Made by a program: the position numbers and the translations under genes
Source of the DNA: Clytia hemisphaerica
Taxonomy: Eukaryota > Cnidaria > Hydrozoa > Leptothecata > Clytiidae
Direction of reading: 5' to 3'
Length of the DNA stretch: 64,000 bases
Assembly (NCBI GenBank): GCA_902728285.1
Contig: CACVBU010001153.1
Span: forward strand, 248,001 to 312,000
Part shown: positions 45,938 to 64,000 of the stretch, piece after piece
How the letters are laid out: each line of letters opens with the position of its first letter
Numbering within the stretch: position 1 is the stretch's first letter
Notes under the pieces: generated by a model
The model's database searches: none
What the model was told of the DNA's origin: nothing
Seen by the model: the letters and a program-made list of their open reading frames with translations, nothing else

Positions 45938-46780
45938 CTCAACTTCAGTTGAGCTAGAGTAGAATCTGAGAATGCCTGTCTGTGTCTCTGTCTGTCACCA
46001 AAACTTTGGGGCAGGCTGGAGACTTTAAAAATGGTCCGATTTGGCTGAAATTTTGCACACTTGATCTTTGGGTGAATCCCTGGGGGTGATTTTTTCATTT
46101 TTTCAAAATTTTGGATTTTTGGGGCCTGGGATGAGTTTTTTGCCAAAACGAGGCTAAAACTTTGGGGCAGGCTGGAGACTTCAAAAATTGACCGATTTCG
46201 CTGAAATTTTGCACACTTGATCCTTGGGTGAATATGTGGGGGTGTTTTTTTCATTTTTCCAAAATTTTGATTTTTGGGGCCTGGGCACGATTTTTTCGCC
46301 AAAACGAGGCTAAAGCTTTGGGGCAGGCTGGAGATTTCAAAAATTGTCCAATTTCGCTTAAATTTTGCACACTTGATCCTTGGGTGAATATCTGGGGTTT
46401 TTTTTTCATTTTTCCAAAATTTTGATTTTTGGGGCCTGGGTACAAGTTTTTTTGCCAAAACGAGGCCAAAACTTTGGGGCAGGCTGGAGACGTCAAAAAT
46501 TGTCCGATTTCGCTGAATTTTTGCACACTTGATCCTTGGGTGAATATCTGGGGGTGTTTTTTTCATTTTTCCAAAATTTTGATTTTTGGGGCCTGGGCAC
46601 GAGTTTTTTTGCCAAAACGAGGCTAAAACTTTGGGGCAGGCTGGAGACGTCAAAAATTGTCCGATTTCGCTGAAATTTTGCACACTTGATCCTTGGGTAA
46701 CTCCCTGGATTTTACAATTGGGCCTACAAGTAGCTTTGAAAATACTGAAGTTGAGCCAGTGCGGTTAGCACGTTCGACAG
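45938..46780. mobile_element. insertion carrying a 156 bp minisatellite
   Basis: CTCAACTTCAGTTGAGC at the left and the inverse of CAACTTCAGTATTTTC near 46756 are short inverted ends. Between them AAACTTTGGGGCAGGCTGGA recurs at 46001, 46157, 46312, 46469 and 46626. It is inserted into a unit of the 470 bp repeat. Confidence 0.7.
46001..46715. repeat. 156 bp tandem repeat, about 4.6 copies
   Basis: Periods are 156, 155, 157 and 157 bp. Because 156 is 52 codons, the minus strand stays open for over 300 codons as an imperfect 52-residue repeat (blocks such as VSSLPQSFGLVLAKK and HPRIKCAKFQRN). I read this as a consequence of the period, not as evidence of a protein. Confidence 0.8.
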
Positions 46781-48264: not shown

Positions 48265-48665
48265 AAAATAGAACTAAAGTCTGTCCAGATATAATTGGCA
48301 GTGGAAACAAGAATGCCTGTAACTTTTGATAGTCAAATATAATTATGGAAATTTTTTTTGCTTGTTTTAGAGAATGAAAAGCGCTATATTTGAATGTATT
48401 TTTGGTTGAAAAATTCGCGATTTTTAGCGGTTAAATTTGCGATTGTAAAAATTGAGCTTTTTTTCTACGTGTGCTATAACGTTCATTTTTACACCAGTGG
48501 TAGTTCAACCTTAGGTTAAGAAGTTTATTAAATTTCAAGGCGAACAGAAAAGTCCTTCGGAAGATATGAGACCCGAAATACCCCTTGGTAGCACTTTTCT
48601 TTGAAATATCAAATCTCCAACTTATTACTAAAAACGGGGGTTATGTTATCTTTTTTGAACAGTGC
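48265..48665 (+). repeat. single arm of the 1 kb fold-back element
   Basis: AAAGTCTGTCCAGATATAAT through GAACAGTGCAATTAAACG matches one arm plus inner sequence of the element at 57548-58561. The other arm is absent, so this is a deletion derivative or solo arm. Confidence 0.7.
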
Positions 48666-48948
48666 AATTAAACGGTTATAAGATTTGATTTTAATAATAC
48701 AACCACTGACTTTATAAACCCTGGACGATTGGAAATTTTGAAATGGCTACTGGCAAAGAAGTATTTGTAGTGTTAAAGATTTGCCTAATGACACTGTGCT
48801 GCATTGCTAGTGTACAAGCAAAACAGATCTAACCAGGGGGAACTAATTTCATAGAAACTCCGTTCAAAACATTTTTCTTGATCGTTATTGAGAAACTGCC
48901 TCCATGGTCTATATGAAGCTCAATGAATTCAAAGATATATCTTTTCAG

Positions 48949-53469: not shown

Positions 53470-53742
53470 TTAAAATCTCTTCTCCCTTTTACTTTCTTCG
53501 TGTTCCTCCTCCTCCATCTCGCTCTCTCTCCAGTAGGTCAGCAACCTTTCAATGATGACCAACTTAAGCCCAGTCATCGGTAGATTCCTTCTTCGCAGCT
53601 CTTCCCTCAACTCCACCACTTTCATTTCTTTGATCCGTCCCTTGGTCAAGGGTAAGTGCCTATCATTGGCCAGACTTTCGTGAGTCTTCGTTCTTTTTCC
53701 AATATGACGAGCCTTTCCTTGAACTATTTTTCTCTTCTCATT
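53470..53742 (-). CDS. SAP-domain reading frame, paralogue 1
   Basis: 90 codons. A basic lead-in (GKARHIGKRTKTHESLANDR and HLPLTKGRIKE) is followed by the SAP motif MKVVELREELRRRNLPMTGL and KLVIIERLLTYW, then an acidic tail EMEEEEHEESKREKRF. SAP motifs are two-helix DNA-binding modules (after SAF-A/B, Acinus, PIAS), usually nuclear. The frame is separated from the Glu/Gly repeat upstream by one TAA (53743-53745), which is at the same place in paralogue 2. Confidence 0.55.
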   Translation of the reverse strand, partial: NEKRKIVQGKARHIGKRTKTHESLANDRHLPLTKGRIKEMKVVELREELRRRNLPMTGLKLVIIERLLTYWRESEMEEEEHEESKREKRF

Positions 53743-53745
53743 TTA

Positions 53746-53884
53746 TAACCATCTTGGGCGGCCCCTTGTGGGAAGAGCTATAGCTGGTAACACCTCCTCT
53801 CCTGCTCCTACCGGTTCTTCTCCGATCTCCTCTCCTGCTCCTACAGGTTCTTCTCCAACCTCCTCTCCTGCTTCTTCTGCTTTG
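53746..53884 (-). CDS. Glu/Gly repeat exon of paralogue 1
   Basis: Acceptor TTATTTTCATAG at 53885. In the frame shared with the SAP ORF it reads GEEPVGAGEEIGEEPVGAGE, then EVLPAIALPTRGRPRWL. In the frame that would follow from the exon at 54004-54060 (phase 0) it reads as an arginine-rich sequence (QSRRSRRGGWRRTCRSRRGD) ending at a nearby TGA. Which frame, if either, is used is unclear. Confidence 0.35.
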
Positions 53885-54003: not shown

Positions 54004-54060
54004 CTGCTCACTGTTGACCTCAGCTTCTGCCTCCTCGAGGATTTGGGCAAGGTTTTCACC
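54004..54060 (-). CDS. short internal exon GENLAQILEEAEAEVNSEQ
   Basis: 57 bp, phase 0 at both sides: acceptor CGGTTTAG, donor GTTAGTATT. The 19-residue peptide is a short acidic amphipathic segment. The MASN-type exons 3-8 kb upstream on the same strand end in phase 0 at GTAAGT and could splice to it. A decayed copy (LEEAELE then a stop) lies at 56530-56580. Confidence 0.45.
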
Positions 54061-54995: not shown

Positions 54996-55138
54996 GTTTT
55001 TCCTATTTTTTTGTTTCTACATTGCCTTCATTAAACTTTGATTTAAACTTTGAACCATGGACACGGTTGAGACTTACTTTTTGTAATTTGAAAAAATATC
55101 AAACAAAAAATAATAAGAATTAAATTAAACGGACGTAC

Positions 55139-55337
55139 CACTGGGCCCGGAGCCACCACTATCATTATCATTATCATCATAATAATCTTTTTTCTTCCTC
55201 TTACTGTCTTCATGTTCCTCCTCCTCCATCTCGTTCTCTATCCAGTAGGTCAGCAACCTTTCGATGATGACCAACTCAAGCCCAGTCATCGGTAGGTTCC
55301 TTCTACGCAGCTCTTCCCTCAACTCCACCACTTTCAT
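55139..55337 (-). CDS. SAP-domain exon, paralogue 2
   Basis: MKVVELREELRRRNLPMTGL then ELVIIERLLTYWIENEMEEE and an acidic/basic tail ending NDSGGSGPSG at a donor GTACGT. Nearly identical to paralogue 1 through the SAP motif. A short duplication just upstream (GGGACGGCAAGGGATGG) shifts the preceding basic segment out of frame. A third fragment of its 3' end is at 63095-63230. Confidence 0.55.
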
Positions 55338-55464
55338 TTCTTTGATCCATCCCTTGCCGTCCCTTGGTCAAGGGTAAGTGCCTATCATTGGCCGGACTTT
55401 TGTGGGTCTTCGTTCTTTTTCCAATTTGACGAGCCTTTCCTTGACCTCTTTTTCTCTTCTCGTT

Positions 55465-55848
55465 TTAAATCTGTCTTGGGCGGCCCCTTGTGGGAAGAGC
55501 TATAGCTGGTAACACCTCCTCTCCTACTCCAACCGGTTCCTTTTCCGCCTCCTCTCCTGCTCCTACCGGTTCTTCTCCGACCTGCTCTCCTGCTCCTACC
55601 GGTTCCTTTTCCGCCTCCTCTCCTGCTCCAACCGGTTCCTTTTCCGCCTCCTCTCCTGCTCCAACCGGTTCTTCTTCCGCCTCCTCTCCTGCTCCAACCG
55701 GTTCTTCTTCCGCCTCCTCTCCTGCTCCTACTGCTTCTTCCGCCTCCTCTCTTGCTCCTACTGCTTCTCCTGCTCCTTCTCTCCTGTTCTTACTGCTTCT
55801 TCTGCTCCTTCTGCTCCTTGAAACTATGAAAATAAATATGGTTTTCAA
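55465..55848 (-). CDS. Glu/Gly repeat frame of paralogue 2
   Basis: 127 codons of imperfect 11-12-residue repeats of the form EEPVGAGEEAEK, ending LPAIALPTRGRPRQI before a TAA matching the one in paralogue 1. An upstream acceptor (TTATTTTCATAG) is conserved between the copies. Both strands are open across the repeat: plus-strand SSPAPTGS and minus-strand acidic. Confidence 0.35.
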   Translation of the reverse strand: MKTIFIFIVSRSRRSRRSSKNRREGAGEAVGAREEAEEAVGAGEEAEEEPVGAGEEAEEEPVGAGEEAEKEPVGAGEEAEKEPVGAGEQVGEEPVGAGEEAEKEPVGVGEEVLPAIALPTRGRPRQI

Positions 55849-56745
55849 TATTCTTTACATTTTTCATTTTAATCAAAGTCAAAATTACACTGCTTTATAA
55901 ATGTCTTAACAGAGGATTCCCCGTTCCGTATTGAGAAGTCTAGGAGTCGTCTCACTGGAATTGTGTAAGCGTAGGTTTAGACTGCGGTCAGCTTGCGAGA
56001 CAGTAACACGTAATTTTTCGAACTAGTGCATTAATCCATGGGGAACAAGGCCAGCGCACTTTTACATCATCCACAATGGATTGTTGAATGGATTCCTAGC
56101 AAAGTCACTAACTTATGTGACTTAAAACAGACCTATTTTACAGACTATATCAAATTAACTTATAATTTCAAAGTCAACGTCACCAACCTATAAAATAATG
56201 AGAAAAATCTAAAGTTAAAAAACAGGGAGTTTGATTGAAAAGTTTACTTATAATAAACAACAAAGAAGGACTTCTAATTTTTACTAAAATAGGCGAATCG
56301 GGTACATGTTTGCTTTTAAAAGCAATAGTTTCCTTCCCAAGTAGTTTGTATAAGAGCTTTTTTTTTGTAATTCCAAGGGGTATTTGTTATAAAAGAAAAT
56401 AAATCAAAAAATTTAAAAGGAAAATCAAAACTAGCGGACAAAGGTTTTGTTTGTGAGCACTATGTAGGGAAAGAGTCCTTATATTTGAAAGCAAATTTTT
56501 GTAAAAAATCCATTTAGCAAATCACTGACCTGCTATTCCAATTCCGCCTCCTCGAGGATTGCGGCTTGGTTTTCAGGCAGGAATAAAATAAGGTTATAAG
56601 TCTGTTTAACAAGATTTTCACCACAAATTATTCCACTATTTATTACTTTTCCAATTCTTTGAGATTAAAGCAACCTATAGACAAGTTACGAGGGAAAAAG
56701 GATGCATTTTTATCAGCATTTTAATTAATTTAAAGAAAAACTTAC

Positions 56746-56844
56746 ATTTGATGTGGAACGGAAGTCGACCGGAACGGGAAAAGTCCGTTTAACAAAACTT
56801 TTATCGCAAATTATTCCACTAATTCCACGATTGAAGCAACCCAT
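56746..56844 (-). CDS. candidate alternative first exon, MGCFNRG type (block B)
   Basis: ATG at 56844, 33 codons (MGCFNRGISGIICDKSFVKR, TFPVPVDFRSTSN), then donor GTAAGTTTTT, phase 0. Unlike the MASN units it is hydrophobic/basic with two Cys. One substitution (R to P) separates it from the block A copy, and no frame damage is present. Confidence 0.4.
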
Positions 56845-57166
56845 AGTCATGTTACGAGGGAAAAAGGATGCCTACTTATTAGCATTTTAATTTTTGGACT
56901 AAAAAACCAATTTTGTGAAATGAGTTTTGTTTATTTTAAATAATGTGTAGCTTTTCAGATAGCGAAAATTTAATTTTTCGTCGGAATAAAATTGTCTAAG
57001 TCAAGACAAGGAAATCGGTTACATCGGTAAAAACTCTTTCACTTTGCATGTGTTTGGGCTAATAAAAACACACTTGTTTGCTGTTAAATTAGCTCGCCTC
57101 GACCACCATAGACAAGAAAGTAAAATCTTAAGACAAAATCATTATGGTGTCCTGTTGTTCACTCAC

Positions 57167-57253
57167 CATTTGTTCGAGTTGTCTCCTTTGTTGAGCGTTT
57201 ATTTGTTTTTTGCTGCCTTTTGGAGTCCTGGTGTCATGGTGTTCACTCGCCAT
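57167..57253 (-). CDS. candidate alternative first exon, MASEHHDT type (block B)
   Basis: 29 codons, MASEHHDTRTPKGSKKQINA then QQRRQLEQM, phase 0 at donor GTGAGTGAAC. Intact and identical in protein to the block A copy at 60415-60501. Confidence 0.45.
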
Positions 57254-57280
57254 GTCAATTTAAGGAAAGAAGTTACTTAC

Positions 57281-57340
57281 TCTCAATTGGTTAATGGGAT
57301 CTTGTTCATTTGTAACATTTGTAATATTGTTGCTTGCAAT
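57281..57340 (-). pseudogene. MASNNITN unit, start codon lost (block B)
   Basis: Same length and donor (AGA then GTAAGT) as its relatives, but the expected ATG is ATT (57338-57340). Block A retains ATG but is split by a palindromic element. Confidence 0.5.
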
Positions 57341-57495
57341 TGTAATAAAATGATAAATTGATAAATTTTTAAGCTAAAACTTTGAAGGGAAAAAAAAGAT
57401 GTTACTTCTTGTTCCTCGTTATAATAACAACTAATCTTTTCTGCGACTTTACAGTGTCACCTGCTTGCTCAATTTAAGGAAAGAAGTTACTTACC

Positions 57496-57543
57496 TTTTA
57501 GTTGGCAGATAATATCGTTTTCGTTTTCCATATTGCTTGCCAT
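57496..57543 (-). pseudogene. MASNMENEND unit, frameshifted (block B)
   Basis: A C is missing next to the ATG compared with block A (GCTTGCATTT versus GCTTGCCATTT), shifting the frame. The donor GGTAAGTAAC is retained. Confidence 0.5.
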
Positions 57544-57547
57544 TTTA

Positions 57548-58561
57548 AAGTCTGTCCAGATATAATTGGCAGTGGAAACAAGAATGCCTGTAACTTTTGA
57601 TAGTCAAATATAATTATGGAAATTTTTTTTGTTTTTTTTAGAGAATCAAAAGCGCTATATTTGAATGTATTTTTGGTTAAAAAATTCGCGATTTTAAGCG
57701 GTTAAATTTGCGATTGCAAAAATTGAGCTTTTTTTCTACTTATGCTATAACGTTCATTTTTACACCAGCGGTAGTTCAACCTTAGGTTAAGAAGTTTGTT
57801 AAATTTTAAGGCAAACAGAAAAGTCCTTCGGAAGATATGGGACCCGAAATACCCCTTGGTAGCACTTTTCTGTGAAATATCAAATCTCCAACTTATTACT
57901 TAAAACGGGGGTAGTGATATGATTGATAAAACAGTTTTTCGATCATAACACATTTTACGACATCGTTAATGACCTCATAGCCAAACTGTGTTTAGTGTTT
58001 TGGGAATTAGCAAAGTTCTTTAGACTTAAAAATAACAAAGGCAATATAAGTTCATGCTTATCTTTTCAATAAAAACAATTATACTGTGATTTCACTTCGT
58101 TTCGAAATAATAAATGATACCAATAGCAATAATACCAATGCACCAACACTTAACATTTTCCAACTTTTAATTGCACTGTTCAAAAAAGATAACATAACCC
58201 CCGTTATTAGTAATAAGTTGGAGATTTGATATTTCACAGAAAAGTGCTACCAAAGGGTATTTCGGGTCCCATATCTTCCGGAGGACTTTTCAGTTTGCCT
58301 TGAAATTTAACAAACTTCTTAACCTAAGGTTGAACTACCACTGGCGTAAAAATGAACGTTATAGCATAAGTAGAAAAAAAGCTCAATTTTTGCAATCGCA
58401 AATTTAACCGCTAAAAATCGCGAATTTTTCAACAAAAAATACATTGAAATATAGCGCTCTTGAATCTCTAAAAAAAACAAAAAAAAATTCCGTAATTATA
58501 TTTGACTGTCAAAAGTTACAGGCATTCTTGTTTCCACTGCCAATTATATCTGGACAGACTT
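57548..58561. mobile_element. 1.0 kb fold-back transposon with TA duplication
   Basis: Arms 57548-57915 and about 58175-58561 are inverted copies beginning AAGTCTGTCCAGATATAATT. TA flanks both sides (57546-57547 and 58562-58563). Block A at 61830-61845 (GCCATTTTAGATCAATTT) is the uninterrupted site, which proves the insertion and the 2 bp duplication. No coding frame; Tc1/mariner-type target choice. Confidence 0.85.
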
Positions 58562-58699
58562 TAGATCAATTTATTTAAGATGACACTTTGAAGGGAAAAA
58601 AAGATGTTACTTCTTGTTCCTCGTTATAATAACAACCAATCTTTTCTGCGACTTTACAGCGTCACCTACTAGGTCAATTCAATGAAAGAAGTTACTTAC

Positions 58700-58759
58700 T
58701 ATCAATTGATTGATAGTTTCTTGTTCTTCTGTATCATAGGTATAGTTGTTTGAAGCCAT
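58700..58759 (-). CDS. candidate alternative first exon, MASNNYTYD type (block B)
   Basis: 20 codons MASNNYTYDTEEQETINQLI with donor GTAAGTAAC in phase 0. Differs from block A at the last codon (ATA for AGA). Confidence 0.45.
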
Positions 58760-59134
58760 TTTTTAGATACAACCCAATACCAACCAAAAAATCGCAAAAA
58801 TGATCAATCTTCTTCAAAATTTCAATATTTCCATGAAAACTCGTATCCATCTTCTGCTATATACGTAGTCGCTTAATCAACCCAAAATTGGAATTTAGAT
58901 CCAAGCCAACTCGTTATCGTCGGATGACCAAAACCATCCCCACTTGATTTTTCGACTAAGGACCAATAGAATTCTTAGTCTCACGGGGATTTCGATAGAA
59001 AATTTAATCCCCACTGTCGGAAAAAAGTTTCACCGGGGCTGTGCGGGGCTATTCCTCGTTATAATAACAATGAATCTTTTCTGCGACTTTACAGCGTCAC
59101 CTACTTGCTCAATTTAATGAAAGAAGTTACTTAC

Positions 59135-59230
59135 CCTTAACTGGTGGATAACTTCTTCATTTTGTTCAACATTGTTGATAATTTCATTTGGATCATATGT
59201 GTAGTTTGTTTCAACATTGTTGCTAGCCAT
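59135..59230 (-). CDS. candidate alternative first exon, MASNNVETNYTYD type (block B)
   Basis: 32 codons starting MASNNVETNYTYDPNEIINN and ending EVIHQLR at donor GTAAGTAACTTC, phase 0. Identical to the block A copy. Confidence 0.5.
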
Positions 59231-59384
59231 TGTAATTAAAATGTTAAGATAATATTCTGAAGAGAAGAAAAAGATGAAATATAATATCAGAAAATGCACA
59301 TTTGACGGAAGCATATTTTTTGGCCTTTTAGCTTCACAAAGTAAGTTCTAGACCCAGTAGCTCCGTGACGTGATCATTACTTAC

Positions 59385-59452
59385 TCGTAATTGATTGATA
59401 GTTTCAATTTCTTCTGGATTTCTTCTGGATCGTAAGGATAGTTCGAAGCCAT
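59385..59452 (-). pseudogene. MASNYPYD unit 1, frame broken by an 11 bp repeat
   Basis: Starts MASNYPYDPEE. An 11 bp duplication (CCAGAAGAAAT) shifts the frame before the INQLR end. Donor GTAAGTAATG intact. Confidence 0.5.
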
Positions 59453-59608
59453 TTTCAACTCGATTTTTAAGATAACACTTAGAAGAGAAGAAAAAGATGA
59501 AATATAATATCAGAAAATGCACATTTTGACGGGAGCATATTTTTTGGCCTTTTAGCTTCACAAAGTAAGTTCTAGACCCAGTAGCTCCGTGACGTGATCA
59601 TTACTTAC

Positions 59609-59684
59609 TCGTAATTGATTGATAGTTTCAATTTCTTCTGGATTTCTGGATTTCTTCTGGATCGTAAGGATAGTTCGAAGCCAT
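59609..59684 (-). pseudogene. MASNYPYD unit 2, frame broken by a 19 bp repeat
   Basis: Same start as unit 1, with a longer internal duplication giving an in-frame stop. The roughly 230 bp repeat containing each unit is itself tandem (59270-59480 and 59480-59700). Confidence 0.5.
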
Positions 59685-59997
59685 TTTCAACTCGATTTTT
59701 AAGATAACACTTTGAAGAGAAGAAAAAGATGGAATATAATATCAGAAAATGCACATTTGACGGAAGCATATTTTTTGGCCTTTTAGCTTCACAAAGTAAG
59801 TTCTAGACCCAGTAGCTCCGTGAAGTGATCTGAGATTAAAGATTTTAAGTCAGTTTAACAAAAAAACTTTTATCACAAATTATTCCACTCATTATTATTT
59901 TTCCAATTCTTTGAGATTAAAGCAACCCATAGACAACTTACGAGGGAAAAAGGATGCATTTTTATCAGCATTTTAATTAATTTAAAGAAAAACTTAC

Positions 59998-60096
59998 ATT
60001 TGATGTGGAAGGGAAGTCGACCGGGACGGGAAAAGTCCGTTTAACAAAACTTTTATCACAAATTATTCCACTAATTCCACGATTGAAGCAACCCAT
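59998..60096 (-). CDS. candidate alternative first exon, MGCFNRG type (block A)
   Basis: 33 codons with donor GTAAGTTTTT. Only the residue near the end (FPSTSN versus FRSTSN) differs from the block B copy. Confidence 0.4.
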
Positions 60097-60414
60097 AGTC
60101 ATGTTACGAGGGAAAAAGGATGCATACTTATTAGCATTTTAATTTTTGGACTAAACCAAATTTTTGAAATGAGTTTTGTTTATTTTAAATAATGTGTAGC
60201 TTTTCAGATAGCGAAAATTTAATTTTTCGTCGGAATAAAATTGTCTAAGTCAAGACAAGGAAATCGGTTACATCGGTAAAAACTCTTTCACTTTGCATGT
60301 GTTTGGGCTAATAAAAACACTTGTTTGCTGTTAAATTGGCTCGCCTCGACCACCATAGACAAGAAAGTAAAATCTTAAGACAAAATCATTTATGGTGTCC
60401 TGTTGTTCACTCAC

Positions 60415-60501
60415 CATTTGTTCAAGTTGTCTCCTTTGTTGAGCGTTTATTTGTTTTTTGCTGCCTTTTGGAGTCCTGGTGTCATGGTGTTCACTCGCCA
60501 T
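60415..60501 (-). CDS. candidate alternative first exon, MASEHHDT type (block A)
   Basis: 29 codons, identical protein to 57167-57253, donor GTGAGTGAAC, phase 0. Confidence 0.45.
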
Positions 60502-60538
60502 GTCAATTTAAGGAAAGAAATTACTTACTCTCAATTGG

Positions 60539-60560
60539 TTAATGTTATCTTGTTCATTTA
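60539..60560 (-). pseudogene. MASNNITN unit, 3' part cut off by the palindromic element (block A)
   Basis: Ends in NINQLR at GTAAGTAA. The ATG half is at 61620-61635 on the other side of the 60561-61619 insertion. Confidence 0.55.
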
Positions 60561-61619
60561 GACCAGCGGCCGAGGTAGTGAATTGTGTCACTTCGTAGGG
60601 CACCCCTTAGATCAGGGCAAATTTTTGATATTATTCTCCTAATAGGGTGTAGAATTGATAAAAAAATTTGCCCTTCGAATCTCCTGCAGTTTTCGAGTGA
60701 ATCGATTTTTAGTTAATCGATAGAACTTATCAAGGGTCCCCCCTTTACTAACGGTTTTTTCGAAGTCTGAAAATCAAATATATGAGGCTGCCAACGGATT
60801 CAGCGTGAAAAGTAGATAAAGAAAATGGGGTTATTTGTTAAGTTTCGACCACCTGATGCCGAAAAATGGCATTCTTAAGGCGAAAAATCGACGTTTTTGG
60901 CGTTTTCCGATGACGTCAGCATTTTTCTAGGAGCATTTTCAGAAAAAATCATTTCCACAGCTGGATAGCCCTGAATTAGTAGTATCTGAAAATGGTATGG
61001 TTTGTTAACTTTCGATGTTCCGATCATGGGATATTTCATTTTTAAGGTGGGTAAAGATGCTGAAAAACCTGGAAAAACTGCTGACTCAGCTAAAAATATC
61101 GATAATTTTCAATATTTAAACTAAAATATCTCGAGATCTAGGCATCAAAACTTGACAAACCATACCATTTTCGGATACTACTAATTCAGGGCTATCCAGC
61201 TGTGGAAATGATTTTTTCTGAAAATGCTCGTAGAAAAATGCTGACGTCATCGGAAAACGCCAAAAACGTCGATTTTTCGCCTTAAGAATGCCATTTCTCG
61301 GCACCAGGTGGTCAAAACTTAACAAATAACCCCATTTTCTTTATCTACTTCTCACGCTGAATCCGTTGGCAGCCTCAGATATTTGATTTTCAGACTTCGA
61401 AAAAACCGTTACTAAAGGGGGGACCCTTGATAAGTTTTATCGATTAACTAAAAATCGATTCACTCGAAAACTGCAGGAGATTCGAAGGGCAAATTTTTTT
61501 TATCAATTCTTCACCCTATTAGGAGAATAATATCAAAAATTTGCCCTGATCTAAGGGGTGCCCTACGAAAACCATTTTTAAGGCCTTTTTTGAATCTCGG
61601 ACGCTGGTCTAATTTGTAA
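60561..61619. mobile_element. 1.06 kb near-palindromic element with TA duplication
   Basis: GACCAGCG starts both strands. Arms of about 430-460 bp match closely, for example AGGGCACCCCTTAGATCAGG, TGCAGTTTTCGAGTGAATCG and TTTCCACAGCTGGATAGCCC, around a centre near 61080. TA lies on both sides (60559-60560 and 61620-61621). Block B shows the uninterrupted unit at 57281-57340. No transposase; non-autonomous fold-back. Confidence 0.85.
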
Positions 61620-61781
61620 TATTGTTGCTTGCCATTGTAATAAAATGATAAATTGATAAATTTTTAAGCTAAAACTTTGAAGGGAAAAAAAGATGTTACT
61701 TCTTAAAATAATAACAACTAATCTTTTATGCGACTTTACAGCGTCACCTACTTGGTCAATTTAAGGAAAGAAGTTACTTAC

Positions 61782-61830
61782 CTCTTAGTTGGTAGATAAT
61801 ATCGTTTTCGTTTTCCATATTGCTTGCCAT
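61782..61830 (-). CDS. candidate alternative first exon, MASNMENEND type (block A)
   Basis: MASNMENENDIIYQLR plus one base at donor GTAAGTAACTTC, so phase 1 rather than 0. It could not join the same downstream exon as the others without a frame change. Confidence 0.35.
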
Positions 61831-61974
61831 TTTAGATCAATTTATTTAATAAGATGACACTTTGAAGGGAAAAAAAAGATGTTACTTCTTGTTCCTCGTT
61901 ATAATAACAACCAATCTTTTCTGCGACTTTACAGCGTCACCTACTTGGTCAATTTAATGAAAGAAGTTACTTAC

Positions 61975-62034
61975 TCTTAATTGATTGATAGTTTCTTGTT
62001 CTTCTGTATCATAGGTATAGTTGTTTGAAGCCAT
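61975..62034 (-). CDS. candidate alternative first exon, MASNNYTYD type (block A)
   Basis: 20 codons MASNNYTYDTEEQETINQLR, donor GTAAGTAACTTC, phase 0. Confidence 0.5.
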
Positions 62035-62409
62035 TTTTTAGATACAACCCAATACCAACCAAAAAATCGCAAAAATGATCAATCTTCTTCAAAATTTCAA
62101 TATTTCCATGAAAACTCGTATCCATCTTCTGCTATATACGTAGTCGCTTAATCAACCCAAAATTGGAATTTAGATCCAAGCCAACTCGTTATCGTCGGAT
62201 GACCAAAACCATCCCCACTTGATTTTTCGACTAAGGACCAATAGAATTCTTAGTCTCACGGGGATTTCGATAGAAAATTTAATCCCCACTGTCGGAAAAA
62301 AGTTTCACCGGGGCTGTGCGGGGCTATTCCTCGTTATAATAACAATGAATCTTTTCTGCGACTTTACAGCGTCACCTACTTGCTCAATTTAATGAAAGAA
62401 GTTACTTAC

Positions 62410-62505
62410 CCTTAACTGGTGGATAACTTCTTCATTTTGTTCAACATTGTTGATAATTTCATTTGGATCATATGTGTAGTTTGTTTCAACATTGTTGCTA
62501 GCCAT
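62410..62505 (-). CDS. candidate alternative first exon, MASNNVETNYTYD type (block A)
   Basis: 32 codons ending EVIHQLR at GTAAGTAACTTC, phase 0; identical to 59135-59230. As in the other units, the donor is followed by a conserved intron start including GTGACGCTGTAAAGTCGCAG. Confidence 0.5.
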
Positions 62506-63094: not shown

Positions 63095-63230
63095 TGAAGT
63101 AAAAGCAACCCATGGACACGGATGAGACTTTCTTTTTGTAATTTGAAAAAATATCAAACAAAAAATAATAAGAATTAAATTAAACGGATATACCACTGGG
63201 CCCGGGGCCACCACCACCATCATGATACTT
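63095..63230 (-). repeat. 3' fragment of a third SAP paralogue
   Basis: ACCACTGGGCCCGGGGCCAC, and downstream AAATATCAAACAAAAAATAA, match 55070-55160 closely, including the exon end before GTATATCC. The SAP motif itself is not present within reach. Confidence 0.55.
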
Positions 63231-64000
63231 CAAAATAAACTGCATTGGAATAATTTTGATAGAAATTCAATTAAAATGCAATTTTGTGCTCGCTGAGAAT
63301 ATATTTTTGGGTATTTCCGCACAAAAACTTTCGAAATAGAGTTTGAAAATGAAAATATAAACGAAGAAGAAAAAAGTAGTTTTAGATAGAATTGTTTTGT
63401 AATTATCATTTTCTTATTGGTGAAATTTAGATCCTACAACATTATCGCACTGTGATAGATTTTTGAAAGATAACTACTCTCTAGAAAGTTATGACCTTAT
63501 AAAAAAGACTTTCTTTGATGTTGGTGATGTTTTTGTAACTTTAAGCTGTATTTTACGCTTAAATCGTTATTTGTAGATTTTTTTTCACAGTGATATAATG
63601 CCCTTGAATTGGGTATTCAGCGATTAAAAAATCTTAAATAAACAATTCTACCAGATGGTGATTTTTTCTCAAACCCCCTGCTTTTGAAAGCCAAATTACT
63701 ACTTCCAGAACAAACCTTATTTCAGTTTTCATTTGATCTCTCTCCGTCTATTTCTTCCATTGCACTGAAAATAAAGGAAACCCATAGAATCATTGTTGTC
63801 CTTTGCCAATTCAATCCATATAAAAAGTCACTGACCACCTTGCCCCCACTGTAGATTAGTTTATAAAATAACTTTTCTCCTCTTCATCTTTCGTTACTCA
63901 TCAAACGTTACTGTCCGTAACTTCTTTGCACAAATTACTTTATTTAGAACAAAACTGATTTTTCTTTATACTCCTGTTCATCGTTATACATATCGTGGAG
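63231..64000. other. nothing recognised to the window end
   Basis: AT-rich with no arms, exon signals or repeats that I can support. Confidence 0.4.

Follow-up and report, generated by a model that had tools for sequence, protein, structure and literature searches.

The 64-kb stretch of Clytia hemisphaerica DNA analysed here (the window, positions 248001-312000 of contig C796) is AT-rich and carries on its minus strand, between 62.5 and 56.7 kb, an array of short units laid out as an ATG, a brief open frame and a GTAAGT donor. The question raised by this locus is which gene such units would begin. A preliminary description had read them as thirteen interchangeable first exons of a variable-first-exon cluster. 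Our comparison with the whole genome (417 Mb, 951 contigs) supports the assignment of the units beginning MASN as first coding exons of a gene that would continue with a linker exon of the type found at 54004-54060 and then with an exon encoding a SAP domain. We think it probable, with considerable room for doubt, that the array consists of multiplied first exons of this three-exon gene and is, at the window, mainly a decaying relic of turnover of the N-terminal exon. Positions in the window are given within the 64-kb stretch, and other loci as contig:position.

The position, strand, layout and conserved intron starts in the preliminary description are borne out, and the motifs at the donor and in the intron recur far beyond chance. 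The motif GTGACGCTGTAAAGTCGCAG has 6 sites at up to 3 mismatches versus none in 100 shuffles, and GTAAGTAACTTCTTTC has 12 sites at the same threshold, 8 of them inside the array, compared with 1.39 expected. We count 14 unit-like sites rather than thirteen: 10 of the MASN type (VET, NYT, MEN, NIT and YPYD, two of each), 2 MASE and 2 MGCF. They follow each other in the order VET NYT MEN NIT MASE MGCF YPYD YPYD, then VET NYT MEN NIT MASE MGCF, and the three longest mutual matches between the two blocks are 92-99% alike. Spacing is about 190-230 nt for some units (NYT-MEN and YPYD-YPYD-VET) and at least 435 nt for others. MASN units share their strand and phase and bring their own donors, as tandem first exons would. 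Two stretches in them are conserved, the initial MASN and the I[NH]QLR that directly precedes the donor. Both copies of VET and NYT are undamaged and in phase 0 (4 of 10 units), and the remaining six are broken in donor phase, reading frame, start or continuity (Table 1). The earlier figure of at least seven undamaged units is reached only if MASE and MGCF are included.

Neither of these two types can be retained as an interchangeable N-terminus. MGCF was rejected as a first exon since it is a chance frame in a non-coding repeat, and neither the second tandem copies within the window nor those on C356 and at C796:839k keep this frame (aligned letters, by eye). The link between this repeat and the surroundings of SAP genes is weak: among 15 comparisons, the one at 63.1 kb was equalled by 1 of 200 shuffles and the other 14 by at least 9. 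MASE is unsupported as a first exon. Among the loci compared it is confined to the two window blocks, and what looks like its donor duplicates its own start as a direct repeat (by eye). The frame running onward from MASE faintly resembled the start of a glutathione transferase, an idea dropped after a PDB search returned a single weak and unrelated row (E 0.55).

The MASN units bear marks of protein-coding sequence. NYT1 and NIT2, which align without gaps over 60 nt, differ at 19 positions, 11 of them third codon positions, giving 7 amino acid changes versus 12.1 expected (P=0.0006). Among 12 unit types taken from five loci, which give 66 overlapping pairs, the proportion of differing silent sites (pS) is 0.63 and that of differing replacement sites (pN) is 0.27. 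The exon-end test gave P<=0.029 for each of six out of ten type pairs, the four with NIT being left out, with ends picked for being conserved.

We assign these units to a three-exon gene because three intact loci in the same genome, on C796, C304 and C869, contain that gene. Each has a MAS... first exon, a 16-codon exon and a SAP exon, with phase 0 at every join and GT and AG present. Their proteins continue after the first exon with PENP.PILEEAE..., and the final exon encodes an acidic stretch, KRGRPRR, which resembles an AT-hook, and the SAP domain (Pfam E 4e-9 to 4e-8; 33.2-36.3 bits with a cut-off of 23.9). Over the SAP exons of the three loci and a fourth copy (C472), pN/pS is 0.44 to 0.61 in six pairs. 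The gene model, read from sequence, predicts a small protein with a short acidic N-terminus (MAS...I[NH]QLR), a linker exon of 16-19 residues, and an exon with acidic repeats, the AT-hook-like RGRP and the SAP DNA-binding domain, and its role is probably nuclear. The first intron is 12-21 kb long. One first exon was detected per intact gene, the middle of the long introns being covered by the matches listed in genome searches, so that a gene of this family can be intact without an array.

At the window the same exon order is found in damaged form. The preliminary description had noted that phase 0 of the units matches the exon at 54004-54060; this fit is confirmed, and the exon (exon 2B) is a sound linker exon of the family. 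Exon 2A and both SAP exons are broken, although the two SAP copies still pass the Pfam cut-off of 23.9 with 38.2 and 27.7 bits. The idea of a variable-first-exon cluster therefore stands insofar as the units are probably first coding exons of a gene with linker and SAP exons, and is unsupported as a switchboard at this locus, where the SAP exons are broken; one first exon was detected per intact relative.

In the genome the SAP segment has at least 38 matches, many of them clustered. Nine lie in tandem on one strand at C790:61815-76539, with a damaged first-exon unit upstream at 57.2 kb. Eight more are spaced about 2.15 kb apart at C515:254278-269500, a satellite-like arrangement, as if part of the gene had been captured. 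Within the window, 33-nt repeats of SAP exon A (55388-55854, minus strand) can be read in overlapping open frames, an acidic one and an RG-rich one, and the stretch immediately ahead of the SAP domain (53473-53742, minus strand) shows a weak match to the DNA-binding domain of SKN-1, in its arm (PDB 1skn, E=0.017).

Two further arrays of first-exon units were found. For the one at C356:6-12k the motif scan gives 5 units, of which 4 keep an intact start and phase, and there is a further YPYD-like place near 11.9k; the contig stops 6 kb downstream. At C796:839-841k the scan gives 4 units, 2 of them intact, and at least 2 more have altered donors. Among the SAP matches listed, none lies downstream of this array on the same strand until the broken copies of the window, about 536 kb on, and none of the three arrays has an intact SAP exon downstream among the matches listed. 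The regions C356:1-3000 and C796:833.6-836.6k are 92% alike along their length. This match includes a dispersed repeat (L009:1009-2367 on C356; dozens of copies, 90-95% alike), which suggests that the two array loci split after the repeat had inserted.

Comparison of units shows that their divergence is concentrated in the exons. Unlike types in the window share 94-98% identity in their upstream flanks and 93-96% over the first 70 bases of the intron, against 60-68% for the exons in a codon alignment; the divergent part starts near the TTC of the upstream pyrimidine tract and stops at the donor. The VET1 slot compared with C356 differs at 26 of 497 flank positions (5%; 21 gap columns aside) and at 26 of 78 exon positions (33%; Fisher 1.7e-11), the exon being aligned by peptide with gaps set aside. 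The difference persists in codons whose residue is unchanged (10 of 51 positions, P=8e-4). The first 60 intron bases of VET1 and of VSY on C356 are identical (0/60 differences), as are those of NYT1 and VYY. This raised silent divergence suggests exon lineages that predate their flanks, a pattern easier to reconcile with an exchange of cassettes that have uniform flanks than with fast mutation. Hypermutation of the exons is further disfavoured, and exchange favoured, by a comparison of C356 with C796:839k, where exons of the same type in corresponding slots differ at 5/51 and 3/54 positions with flanks differing at 2/149 to 23/142. The introns cluster weakly by locus. Units of one locus have on average 5.3 differences (12 pairs) and units of different loci 7.8 (54 pairs); this comparison used 12 of the 18 units, after prior exclusion of six whose introns were short, shifted or of another kind. 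On a larger scale, local matches between C796:881-894k and C304 include long stretches 93-96% alike, with 0-3 differences per 100 bases in the part that begins at exon 2 and reaches far into the SAP exon.

We propose that a cassette comprising the exon, about 150 nt ahead of it and 60-90 nt of the following intron would have been multiplied by unequal crossing-over, and that gene conversion may homogenise its flanks while the exons retain old, differing types. Alike flanks would let cassettes recombine, so that first exons could be duplicated, deleted or swapped. A gene with one good unit would remain intact with a changeable N-terminus, and arrays before dead SAP exons would decay. The window would be an example of such decay, with its block-wise doubling, two foldback insertions and SAP exons behind the array that are already pseudogenes.

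Several observations weigh against this account. VET1, VET2, NYT1, NYT2 and exon 2B remain open, and both the splicing of the window units and their silence are putative. Free nucleotide alignment, with many gaps, raises exon identity to 77-87%; identity over the first 95 intron bases is 86-95%; and with fixed exon ends the comparison with the intron gives P<0.05 in just 2 of 6 type pairs. The VAS pair has 0 silent and 3 replacement codons, and the upstream flanks of MEQ are those that differ at 23 of 142 positions. Constraint on the promoter and the 5' intron is a possible source of flank likeness. At C796:881k and C304 the first exons are of different types, their surroundings do not align and the 3' tails of the SAP exons also differ, so this swap was not limited to the exon alone. 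Finally, C356 and C304 may be either paralogues or divergent haplotypes.

The array could also be the leftovers of separate whole genes in tandem that later lost their other exons. It has SAP remnants on either side (at 63.1 kb and at 55-53 kb), and SAP copies are arranged in tandem at C790 and at C796:858-861k. This is nevertheless unlikely, as some units are separated by only about 190-230 nt, no exon 2, SAP exon or SAP 3' end was detected between units, and a first intron of 12-21 kb in the intact genes would call for a near-identical deletion in every copy. A working cluster, in which VET and NYT would use their own promoters and be spliced to 54004-54060 and the next exon, would produce short proteins with a basic RG-rich tail. 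The open units and sound exon 2B with agreeing phases speak for it, as do copy B, which stays open for 48 codons when entered in phase 0, and an upstream block of about 120 nt common to VET and YPYD with a TATA-like stretch in it (by eye). The phase-0 frame of copy B differs, however, from the acidic/SAP frame read by the three intact genes, and the intact genes manage with a single detected first exon. Judged by eye, most changes that the units acquired after the block was duplicated are replacements or losses, which points to relaxed constraint. Since the window SAP exons are pseudogenes, we consider a working cluster here quite unlikely.

That the units are parts of a transposon is highly improbable. 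The stretch upstream of NYT1 is indeed dispersed (at least 25 of 54 rows fall entirely within this part of the searched sequence, among the best 40 of 51 candidates), and foldback elements are present in the array. The preliminary description had accepted that transposon copies with the same flanks genome-wide would overturn it; the exon cassettes do not behave in this way, and the NYT upstream stretch alone is dispersed. Cassettes of the VET promoter and exon have 13 and 14 places among the matches listed, all of them in clusters of the family save one weak place on C305, and the unit peptide belongs to three intact genes of host type. As an observation on the foldback elements themselves, the two in the array have long inverted arms, and an arm of one occurs also near 48.3 kb.

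The preferred account, that of multiplied and decaying first exons, has partial parallels in known systems. Divergence concentrated in exons with similar flanks is a feature of exon 2 of major histocompatibility complex (MHC) genes and of ASSET-type toxin exons; here the exon is the N-terminal one of a DNA-binding-type protein, and the comparison is within one genome rather than between alleles. Dscam genes in Chelicerata reportedly have tandem 5' cassettes, which offers an invertebrate likeness in an unrelated protein. The SAP domain resembles by sequence those of MKL1 and THO1 (PDB 2kvu and 1h1j; E=1.8e-5 and 0.0076), from which the family differs in its short three-exon gene, acidic repeats and AT-hook-like motif. 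Among variable-first-exon loci, UGT1 is reported to evolve by birth-and-death and the clustered protocadherins to undergo gene conversion frequently (PMC1885805). The window is like these loci, as described there, in its tandem first exons of one orientation, common downstream exons and pseudogene units amid intact ones. Unlike them, it has first exons of 16-32 codons rather than whole domains and broken constant exons, and one first exon was detected per intact SAP gene. Conversion in protocadherins acts on the exons, whereas in the SAP-gene arrays the flanks are the uniform part, and use of multiple units in these arrays is putative. In the open-access literature no paper was found that unites alternative first exons, a SAP domain and a tandem arrangement, and a wider search showed nothing relevant among the best 10 of 36 matches.

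The analysis thus places an enigmatic array within a gene family that can be defined and in which a short exon is the focus of divergence and recently duplicated intact genes bear different N-termini. A bolder and rather doubtful reading is that the genome maintains a stock of ancient types of first exon for a nuclear protein with SAP and AT-hook motifs, swapped between loci as cassettes with homogenised flanks and giving different N-termini to genes that are otherwise similar. Arrays, even those without intact SAP exons, would act as donors, and the types would be kept by diversifying or balancing selection in the manner of MHC or antigen genes. Were the types indeed preserved by selection, the family would amount to a system of diversity in a chromatin-type protein, a class for which none is expected; otherwise it would be a clear instance of birth and death of first exons, accompanied by exchange among loci.

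Table 1. Features of the window and the three intact genes of the family; exons of a gene are separated by slashes.
Feature	Position	Strand	Remarks
First exon VET1	62410..62505	minus	undamaged: MASNNVETNYTYDPNEIINNVEQNEEVIHQLR
Dispersed repeat upstream of NYT1	62063-62170		copies on many contigs
First exon NYT1	61975..62034	minus	undamaged
First exon MEN1	61782..61830	minus	donor one base out of phase
First exon NIT1, 5' half	61612..61635	minus	interrupted by foldback element
Foldback element within NIT1	60560..61611		arms 60592-61045 and 61115-61569; ends uncertain by 1-2 bases
First exon NIT1, 3' half and donor	60529..60559	minus	
MASE1	60415..60501	minus	unsupported as first exon; starts 27 nt past NIT1 exon end
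MGCF1	59998..60096	minus	chance frame in non-coding repeat, rejected
First exon YPYD1	59609..59684	minus	frameshift via short tandem duplications
First exon YPYD2	59385..59452	minus	frameshift via one short tandem duplication
First exon VET2	59135..59230	minus	undamaged, identical to VET1
First exon NYT2	58700..58759	minus	open, final codon altered
Foldback element just upstream of MEN2	57546..58563		arm sequence recurs at 48.27-48.67 kb (48266-48672)
First exon MEN2	57495..57543	minus	donor out of phase
First exon NIT2	57281..57340	minus	without start codon
MASE2	57167..57253	minus	unsupported as first exon
MGCF2	56746..56844	minus	rejected
Exon 2 (A), remnant	56532..56575	minus	limits approximate; without acceptor AG; in-frame stop
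SAP exon A	55125..55823	minus	pseudogene: frameshifts, in-frame stop
Exon 2 (B)	54004..54060	minus	intact linker exon, phase 0-0: GENLAQILEEAEAEVNSEQ
SAP exon B	53470..53884	minus	pseudogene: SAP frame unreached in phase, in-frame stop; SAP domain E=1.1e-9
3' end of another SAP exon copy	63110..63241	minus	upstream of array
Intact gene	C796:881271-881318 / 893400-893447 / 894158-894694		protein start MASNNVETIDTIKKLI
Intact gene	C304:55022-55069 / 72330-72377 / 73089-73667		protein start MASNKQNEKESINQIR
Intact gene	C869:702948-702995 / 723784-723831 / 724697-725152		protein start MASGSNSPSEDIHQLR
PELP1/RIX1-like gene	29.9-33.7 kb	minus	RIX1 match below Pfam cut-off
LINE-type (long interspersed nuclear element) reverse transcriptase	40.0-41.9 kb		

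Other searches concerned the wider surroundings. Rfam at gathering scores gave no match in the window, and ARAGORN with the bacterial code found nothing there. Among viral contigs the SAP segment has no relative and the intron motif no exact match, and the search of phage DNA gave one match of 65 bases (E 6e-3). On the choice between paralogues and haplotypes, the best 40 of 473 candidates for the repeat-rich C356:60-61.5k include no match near C796:893k, and the PELP1-like gene gave one match. A 156-nt tandem repeat of 4.5 copies occupies 46000-46698 of the window and lies inside a minus-strand stretch that is open for 360 codons.

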